From Ignavibacteriota bacterium (GTDB lineage: Bacteria; Bacteroidota; Ignavibacteria; Ignavibacteriales; Ignavibacteriaceae): a stretch of DNA of 64,000 bases. Below the pieces are notes generated by a model, which ran no database searches, had not been told where the DNA came from, and was given only the letters and a program-made list of their open reading frames with translations. Each line of letters starts with the position of its first letter. Within the stretch, counting starts at the first letter, position 1. The stretch covers positions 3,271,001 through 3,335,000 of the forward strand of contig CP053446.1 of the NCBI GenBank assembly GCA_013285405.1, in the 5' to 3' direction. Made by a program: the position numbers and the translations under genes. Below are positions 40,740 to 41,623 of this stretch, piece after piece.

Positions 40740-40817
40740 AATAATGATTACAATCACGTTGTTAGTTATAACTTGCCTCATCAACCCCTTGTTAGTTACG
40801 CACATTAAAAAAAGTAG

Positions 40818-40891
40818 TACACCCGTAGGGATTCGAACCCCAAACCTTCTGATCCGTAGTCAGATGCTCTATCCAGTTGAGCTACGGGTGC
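40818..40891 (-). tRNA. tRNA-Arg (anticodon ACG)
   Basis: 74 bases on the minus strand. Acceptor GCACCCG with CGGGTGT (one G-U), D-arm GCTC/GAGC, anticodon stem TCTGA/TCAGA with loop CTACGGA, T-arm with TTCGAAT. A34 is expected to be converted to inosine by TadA (29895-30389). Its 5' leader is part of the 90-bp repeat unit, so any transcript from outside the array must first cross the tandem tRNA fragments. Confidence 0.95.
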
Positions 40892-41340
40892 AATTAATTA
40901 TTTTTTGTATAACCTTCTGATCTCCCGTTTGTAGTCGGGATAAACTCCGTCAGATGCTCTATCCAGTTGAGCTACGGGTGCAATTAATTATTTTTTGTAT
41001 AACTTTCTGATCTCCCGTTTGTAATCGGGATAAACTCCGTCAGATGCTCTATCCAGTTGAGCTACGGGTGCAATTAATTATTTTTTGTATAACCTTCTGA
41101 TCTCCCGTTTGTAATCGGGATAAACTCCGTCAGATGCTCTATCCAGTTGAGCTACGGGTGCAATTAATTATTTTTTGTATAACCTTCTGATCTCCCGTTT
41201 GTAATCGGGATAAACTCCGTCAGATGCTCTATCCAATTGAGCTACGGGTGCAATTAATTATTTTTTGTATAACCTTCTGATCTCCCGTTTGTAGTCGGGA
41301 TAAACTCCGTCAGATGCTCTATTCAGTTGAGCTACGGGTG
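40861..41340 (-). repeat. Tandem array of 90-bp units containing tRNA-Arg(ACG) 5' halves
   Basis: Five full units (40861, 40951, 41041, 41131, 41221) and a 30-base partial unit (41311-41340). In transcript orientation each unit has the 5' acceptor strand, D-arm and 5' anticodon-stem strand of tRNA-Arg(ACG), then a REP-like hairpin (TCCCG/CGGGA) in place of the anticodon loop, then the 3' anticodon strand with AGGTT, and an AT-rich spacer. T-arm and 3' acceptor strand are missing. Only the unit at 40861 continues into a complete tRNA. Units differ by 1-3 bases (gtagtc/gtaatc, aacctt/aacttt, ccagtt/ccaatt), so the copies are real rather than an assembly echo. Confidence 0.92.
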
Positions 41341-41392
41341 AACGATGACTTTCCGGTTAAAAATGTATCATTAACAATTGATACTTTCACTG

Positions 41393-41400
41393 CAAATATA
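41393..41400 (-). promoter_or_regulatory. Possible -10 element for the tRNA-Arg array
   Basis: Minus-strand TATATTTG matches TAnnTTTG exactly, about 50 bases before the first partial tRNA copy. A hairpin GTATCA/TGATAC follows at 41364-41383. No clear -35. Confidence 0.4.
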
Positions 41401-41623
41401 ATCTAAAATTTTTGAAGTTTAAGATGTATTTAATCGTTGGATTCTCATCTCAAGTAAAACTTAAATTCAATAATTCATTATGAACCTATTAAAAGCAAAT
41501 GCATCATTCTAATAAAAATATTTAACACTTTCTCATATTGTAAACTGATGAAGACTTTTATAAATAATTCCAATTACAAAATTCAATTTTCACTGGCATA
41601 CATCTTGGGAATATGACCAATCA
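41401..41623. other. Intergenic sequence without recognised features
   Basis: AT-rich DNA between the tRNA array promoter and the structured element upstream of dapA; nothing convincing was seen on either strand. Confidence 0.4.

Follow-up and report, generated by a model that had tools for sequence, protein, structure and literature searches.

In fungal mitochondria, mobile elements known as mORFs bring a replacement end into the gene that they enter; examples are atp6, atp9, cox2 and nad3 of Glomus and atp6 of Allomyces, and the mORF nuclease in atp9 belongs to the GIY-YIG type (PMC3630166). Another GIY-YIG enzyme, SegB of phages T4 and T6, is a free-standing homing endonuclease of tRNA regions, which cuts tRNA-containing DNA; for T6, it was demonstrated to cause a segment with tRNA and nuclease to repeat in tandem (PMC13096335). 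A survey of Slx1-like GIY-YIG proteins predicts roles in DNA repair and places selfish GIY-YIG enzymes in the UvrC-related lineage (PMC1564403). The Rickettsia palindromic elements (Ogata et al., cited in PMC6649704) are short palindromes inserted in genes, and in protein genes they are in frame.

Here we analyze a tandem array of interrupted tRNA pieces in the chromosome of an Ignavibacteriota bacterium, located in a stretch of 64,000 nucleotides (the window). In our view the array is probably a relic, composed of ORF-less, tandemly amplified copies of a GIY-YIG-linked mobile element that targets tRNA genes. As at mORF loci (PMC3630166), the proposed arrangement comprises the core of the host gene, a foreign end, a nuclease ORF and the displaced native end, with the host gene restored. 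Unlike mORFs, the element would target bacterial tRNA genes, either end of which is replaceable, and would leave the displaced end with a palindromic insert; its ORF-less copies form tandem arrays, and its nuclease is of the minimal Slx1-like type. Compared by description, the likeness to SegB consists in a GIY-YIG nuclease adjoining tRNA genes and in tandem repeats of tRNA-linked DNA; however, SegB repeats contain whole tRNAs and belong to a phage, whereas the chromosomal repeats found here contain tRNA ends that are broken and carry hairpin inserts. With prokaryotic Slx1-like proteins (UPF0213) the nuclease shares a stand-alone minimal GIY-YIG domain and the closest solved structures. The mobile, tRNA-targeting use that we propose was not encountered in the consulted passages of the Slx1-like survey (PMC1564403).

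Three protein genes of this genome carry in frame a palindrome with the core of the window insert, which may be akin to the Rickettsia palindromic elements. We know of no Rickettsia palindromic elements that reside in tRNA loops with restoration of the gene or that are linked to a nuclease. Stand-alone GIY-YIG proteins of the Slx1 type have, to our knowledge, no settled role in most bacteria. Mitochondrial double-hairpin elements, present in Allomyces and others, are mobile, dispersed pairs of small hairpins; the pairing of small hairpins is common to both systems, but those elements are mitochondrial and dispersed, and replacement of tRNA ends by them is not known to us. The 178-bp repeats of E. 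coli tyrT, which include 19 bp of the tRNA-Tyr 3' end, are likewise arranged in tandem downstream of an intact tRNA; we know of neither a hairpin insert nor a nuclease linkage there. A search of open-access literature yielded no earlier description of a tRNA-targeting hairpin/GIY-YIG element, and the family is apparently undescribed so far.

Anatomy of the array ahead of tRNA-Arg(ACG)

The region contains a single strong tandem array, at 40859-41340, with a period of 90 bp, 5.4 copies and 98% match (TRF score 929). It consists of five 90-bp units, all in sense orientation, upstream of the sole complete tRNA-Arg(ACG) on the minus strand, which both ARAGORN and Rfam identify. The original prediction, a 90-bp array directly ahead of the only complete copy, is confirmed in these respects; its count of five and a third units reduces to five, the extra third being the intact tRNA's own 5' part as counted by TRF. 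The features are as follows.

40817..40891, minus strand: intact tRNA-Arg(ACG), putative restored host gene (ARAGORN; Rfam RF00005, 65.7 bits)
40892..40910, minus strand: AT-rich spacer ATACAAAAAATAATTAATT directly before the intact tRNA (from the sequence)
40911..40981, minus strand: tRNA part of unit 5, with nt 1-33 at 40949-40981, the 26-nt palindromic insert at 40923-40948 and nt 38-49 at 40911-40922 (from the sequence and the self-flank comparison)
40982..41071, minus strand: unit 4 and spacer; variable-loop part with a single private change, G to A (TRF)
41072..41161, minus strand: unit 3 and spacer; consensus sequence (TRF)
41162..41251, minus strand: unit 2 and spacer; D loop with a single private change (TRF)
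41252..41340, minus strand: unit 1 and spacer; T for G1 (first tRNA base lost) and a D-loop change (TRF); its 5' part would be the displaced native 5' half under the insertion model
41341..41409, minus strand: native leader and promoter-like block TAGATTATATTTGCA, with TATATTTG at 41393-41400 (homology with congeners)

In transcript order, a unit reads 5'-(G)CACCCGTAGCTCAACTGGATAGAGCATCTGAC, then GGAGTTTATCCCGAYTACAAACGGGA, GATCAGAAGGTT and ATACAAAAAATAATTAATT. The 26-nt palindromic insert GGAGTTTATCCCGAYTACAAACGGGA begins after nt 33 (...CTGAC) and takes the place of anticodon-loop nt 34-37 (TACG in ARAGORN numbering). It is followed by GATCAGAAGGTT, which supplies the 3' anticodon-arm strand and the variable loop and ends the tRNA part of the unit. 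Each unit therefore has a full anticodon arm, with a foreign hairpin as its cap. The units had been read as repeats of the 5' half of the tRNA, which is correct for nt 1-33; yet they are more than half tRNAs, as they also contain the 26-nt insert and the second anticodon-arm strand. The spacer ATACAAAAAATAATTAATT terminates every unit and is unlike the native leader ahead of unit 1.

As had been noted, the units are true copies with real differences: one variant is common to units 1 and 5, and a single private change distinguishes each of units 1, 2 and 4. BLAST matches between tRNA-Arg and its own flanks lie far above those of controls, so the array is not a product of chance. ViennaRNA gave no significant RNA fold for the anticodon-loop insert of the array, which lacks the regularity of the T-loop double hairpin described below. 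Neither the array itself nor, according to an HMM search, any other part of the window contains a GIY-YIG ORF, and by this absence we classify the array only as an ORF-less derivative. Both the missing nuclease ORF and the less regular insert, placed in the anticodon loop, count against the mobile-element reading.

In congeners, the region ahead of the single tRNA-Arg(ACG) aligns with the region ahead of unit 1, and the promoter-like block ATTTTAGATTATATTTGCA is part of the alignment. This block contains a TAnnTTTG element, which resembles the Bacteroidota -7 box. Since the native promoter-like block stands upstream of unit 1, the units separate the native promoter from the functional gene; a second such block was not seen between the units and the tRNA-Arg(ACG) gene. 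Given this position, the 5' units are probably transcribed, and the sense orientation of all of them downstream of ATTTTAGATTATATTTGCA bears out the earlier remark that they are properly oriented for co-transcription. The array is absent from all five congeners compared, each of which has a single tRNA-Arg(ACG). The neighbors are ordinary, with proline dehydrogenase and a DapA homolog on one side and DapA and DapB on the other; no integrase gene was found among them in the ORF list or the neighbor annotation.

Partial tRNA units across the genome

For a self-flank comparison, about 600 bp around every Rfam tRNA in this genome and two relatives were considered, and each tRNA was compared with its own flanks. 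In this genome, we detected 67 sense fragment matches beside the tRNAs from which they derive, none in antisense and none against an unrelated locus. Of the 43 tRNA genes, 14 are flanked by units (1-11 per gene), in each of which a hairpin insert breaks up a tRNA end. The tRNA-Arg array is one instance of this genome-wide pattern.

Units lie on the 5' side of Arg-acg, Ser-tga, Leu-cag and Ala-ggc, and on the 3' side of Thr, Cys, Glu, Val-tac, Val-gac, Asp, Pro, Ser-gct and Asn. The tRNA-Met gene has units on both sides, and tRNA-Leu has one 3' unit besides its 5' units. The arrays include those of Thr (11 x 113 bp), Cys (9 x 92 bp), Glu (6 x 113 bp), Met (6 x 144 bp), Asp (5 x 315 bp), Ser(tga) (3 x 316 bp) and Leu (2 x 295 bp), and there are further arrays besides. 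Unit lengths range from 67 to 316 bp, and the ORF content of a unit is at most one GIY-YIG ORF.

Insertion with restoration of the target versus duplication

The units could have arisen by plain tandem duplication of the tRNA 5' region through slippage or unequal crossing-over, with a stray palindrome in one copy that was then amplified, all of it neutral. This explanation draws on the 98% likeness of the units, which must have been multiplied by tandem recombination, and on the dispersed palindromes with the core GGAGTTTATCC in three protein genes of this genome. We tested it at nine 3' loci by comparing the DNA after the last unit with the DNA after the intact tRNA. The only agreement was found for tRNA-Met, where the same terminator follows the last unit, as is compatible with plain tandem duplication. 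At the other eight loci the two flanks are foreign to each other.

A carried end that appears to be foreign was seen as well. At tRNA-Glu, the intact gene and the inner units encode CCA and share one terminator, while the displaced last end is without CCA and has another, partly similar terminator. Such a pattern would be expected if the carried end derived from a related but different tRNA-Glu locus. Relatives provide both states of a site: the tRNA-Cys site is empty in three congeners (G001, G002 and G003) and occupied in two others (G004 and G005) as well as in the genome under study. In G004 and G005, tRNA-Cys is accompanied by GIY-YIG elements with another insert, CCCCGAAA...TTTCGGGG. One full and one ORF-less unit with near-identical inserts are present in G005, which indicates that, at least at tRNA-Cys, ORF-less units derive from nuclease-bearing ones.

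The differing flanks (8 of 9 loci) together with the empty and occupied sites of congeners argue for insertion with restoration of the target rather than simple duplication. Duplication is further contradicted by inserts that occupy the same T-loop point across many kinds of tRNA and many genera and by GIY-YIG genes inside units, and we consider it unlikely. The earlier idea of runaway duplication therefore survives for the tandem multiplication of the units; for the first unit, insertion of a mobile element with restoration of the tRNA is the most likely origin, not half-gene slippage.

Structure and distribution of the hairpin insert

Most 3' units have the insert in the T loop, at the precise point between C56 and G57. 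Its usual length is 22 nt, made up of two 11-nt hairpins with triloops. The 3.86-Mb genome contains 31 copies of this double hairpin, TxCCnnnGGyA-TzCCnnnGGwA (pattern TNCCNNNGGNATNCCNNNGGNA), 30 of which are at tRNA loci. The reversed TNCCNNNGGNATNCCNNNGGNA pattern, used as a control, does not occur in the same genome, and a hairpin pattern with 4-nt loops gave no matches, the actual loops being 3 nt long. The T-loop insert is found at the same point in tRNAs of many kinds and in many genera. A generic mobile palindrome was considered for the T-loop form and ruled out by the 30 of 31 double hairpins at tRNA loci.

To analyze covariation, we took 62 distinct inserts from many genomes and examined, in each small hairpin, bases 2 and 10, which the search pattern leaves unconstrained. 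All 124 test pairs can form (C-G 49, G-C 44, T-A 30 and G-T 1, that is, 123 Watson-Crick pairs). In 59 of the 62 inserts the two hairpins differ at the test pair, where a match by chance would be expected in about one third. The covariation within these sequences favors two separate hairpins atop the T stem over one long palindrome. Single-strand folding gave no decision between one hairpin and two. In some T-loop inserts ViennaRNA prefers one long imperfect hairpin, which counts against the double-hairpin form; the covariation test was more informative.

The sole double hairpin of the genome away from tRNA genes falls into the window, at 2540-2640 on the minus strand (pattern match at 2594). 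The sequence there is GTAGCTCAGTTCTC[TCCCGAAGGGATTCCTTTGGAA]AAGTCCTGAG..., followed by an inverted copy of CTCAGTTCTC, and it may be a fossil tRNA-derived unit.

A palindrome that shares the core of the window insert (GGAGTTTATCC; GGAGTTTATCCYGC...) is present in three protein genes of this genome. These copies are in frame, at positions 80775, 584772 and 3809845 of C1 (L059, L060 and L067), and code for GVYPAxSGTQND or a close variant. The 11-nt core is common to the three protein genes with the in-frame GVYPAKSGTQND-like insert, and the T-loop form is nearly confined to tRNA loci.

Association with GIY-YIG nucleases

Longer units encode small ORFs of about 80 aa, assigned to GIY-YIG by Pfam (PF01541). 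This genome has 20 GIY-YIG matches, 18 of them small, and 12 of the small ORFs lie in tRNA units (five at Asp, three at Ser-tga, two at Leu and one each at Asn and Ala). Counted as independent loci, the small GIY-YIG ORFs occupy 11, and 5 of these are tRNA units (P ~3e-5, with an estimated 3.9% of the genome near tRNAs). Of 32 unique domains, 31-32 retain the catalytic residues Y, Y, G, R, H and E, and the best matches among solved structures are the UPF0213 entries PDB 1ywl and 1zg2.

For a non-circular sample, loci were chosen solely by the T-loop insert from 84,980 species, resulting in 53 stretches. A same-strand GIY-YIG domain lies 14-126 bp upstream of the insert in 14 of them, compared with 2.6% expected for random positions within 700 bp (P ~5e-11). 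The named organisms among the 53 stretches all belong to Bacteroidota or to neighboring or allied phyla. The taxa with the T-loop insert are Ignavibacteria, Melioribacteraceae, Balneolaceae, Cyclobacteriaceae, Bacteroidales, Prolixibacteraceae, Calditrichota and LCP-89, and GIY-YIG genes were found in units in several families of Bacteroidota. Minimal complete elements come from other Bacteroidota. The cleanest (L262; also L269) runs from tRNA-Ser ...CGC through the nuclease ATG and stop codon to a T-stem strand, the insert, the other T-stem strand, the acceptor strand and the native terminator.

It might be argued that the hairpin units are non-autonomous and were moved, as REPINs are, by a Y1 (HUH, RAYT/IS200-like) transposase, the GIY-YIG genes being mere passengers. 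The two small hairpins and their insertion after a fixed GTTC tetranucleotide without target duplication would fit, and the genome does have four Y1_Tnp genes. However, none of the four is in a unit or at an array, the nearest array being ~30 kb off, whereas GIY-YIG genes do occur in units, in several Bacteroidota families, and the restoration of the tRNA by a carried end is left unexplained. This makes a Y1-driven origin quite improbable. An identity with REPIN/RAYT systems proper was rejected: it requires a linked Y1 transposase flanked by hairpins, and all four Y1_Tnp genes are unlinked.

Several GIY-YIG genes and inserts occur in other settings. Dispersed palindromes of the TCATTCTGAACTTG and CTTCGACTTCGCTCAG types flank three GIY-YIG genes of this genome away from tRNA loci (L192, L199 and L209, at 910389, 2916779 and 3443665), and L192 and L199 have direct repeats as well; the nuclease family of the tRNA units may also be tied to these common TCATTCTGAACTTG/CTTCGACTTCGCTCAG repeats. 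At 61.5-66.8 kb of the same genome (L200/L218), ~1.6 kb from tRNA-Leu, there are two GIY-YIG units that contain tRNA-Leu 5' ends; an ORF resembling an IS256-type transposase stands between them, and a 106-bp direct repeat surrounds the units. Marinoscillum furvescens DSM 4134, a cultured type strain with the same insert signature (L275 and L276), has 11 T-loop double-hairpin sites, 7 of them in one 2.7-kb cluster; no complete tRNA is present upstream in the examined stretch.

Proposed element and its mechanism

The complete mobile element would consist of a stand-alone GIY-YIG nuclease (~80 aa, Slx1-like or UPF0213-like), one tRNA end and a palindromic insert, usually a double hairpin. We propose that it enters a tRNA gene at a loop, that the end it carries rebuilds a working tRNA, and that the displaced native end remains alongside with the hairpin in its loop. 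After 3' insertions the displaced 3' end would lie downstream, interrupted in the T loop between C56 and G57; after 5' insertions, as in the window, the displaced 5' end would lie upstream, interrupted in the anticodon or D loop. The nuclease may cut the empty tRNA site and drive copying, and the hairpin may serve as the terminus of the element or as a recognition structure. Tandem amplification could be stimulated by breaks, as with phage SegB at tRNA-Tyr (PMC13096335).

Applied to the window, the carried end would be the 5' part of tRNA-Arg(ACG), and the old 5' end would be unit 1, which stands beside the native leader and whose first base has decayed. The short form would have grown to five copies through tandem recombination between repeats, and the native promoter would now read through all units to the restored gene. 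The present state of the array is likely a neutral tandem expansion of element scars.

The traits by which mORFs are judged recur in the element family, namely a nuclease with an intact active site (PF01541 in tRNA units), an inserted end unlike the native end beyond the ORF (CCA of tRNA-Glu; flanks at 8 of 9 loci), and empty and occupied alleles in relatives (tRNA-Cys); the window array is without the nuclease ORF. A subset of the stand-alone Slx1-type GIY-YIG proteins seems to power a mobile element that resides in the cell's most conserved genes and does not kill the host. If true, this would account for unusual arrays of tRNA fragments, mosaics of encoded CCA and pseudo-tRNAs tagged with hairpins in Bacteroidota; the mitochondrial homing elements that replace gene ends would have a counterpart in bacteria, and hairpin-guided insertion would have a testable system. 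More tentatively, there may be a whole bacterial family in which a minimal Slx1-like GIY-YIG enzyme makes or recognizes branched double-hairpin DNA at tRNA loops and inserts with a replacement tRNA end of foreign origin. In Bacteroidota and allied phyla, such a family would repeatedly re-engineer both ends of tRNAs, 5' and 3', and could thereby add an encoded CCA.

Unlikely alternatives: functional RNA and integrase islands

The original prediction offered roles for the array as decoys for tRNA processing, alternative 5' partners or a source of tRNA fragments; in a broader form, the units would be a functional RNA array that supplies fragments or decoys for the processing machinery or for tRNA-targeting nucleases. 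The 5' units, lying between the native promoter and the gene, are well placed for this, and hairpins covary across genomes, although a function at the DNA level would explain covariation equally well. Yet the array is species-specific, being missing from the five congeners that keep a single tRNA-Arg(ACG). Similar units, found at 14 tRNA genes in all, stand 3' of other tRNAs, several of them behind the terminator of the tRNA gene, and no single tRNA or loop is favored. The association with nuclease genes suggests mobility instead. An RNA function, in any of the forms proposed, is accordingly unsupported and very unlikely, and the suggested link to TadA is not needed for explaining the array.

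Least probable of all is that the units are attachment-site scars of tyrosine-integrase islands, which likewise enter and restore tRNA genes and to which 3'-half remnants (nt 33-75) of tRNA-Arg(ACG) away from the gene in relatives would point, since the proline dehydrogenase, DapA and DapB neighborhood has no integrase, the units are only 67-316 bp long with at most a GIY-YIG ORF, and a junction hairpin is foreign to att sites. Isolated 3' halves of tRNA-Arg(ACG) (nt 27/33-75) are located at L044 1525-1573, L049 15780-15822, L050 1486-1528 and L051 1201-1243. Such halves are typical of island ends, and tRNA-Arg(ACG) seems to be an ordinary island site as well.
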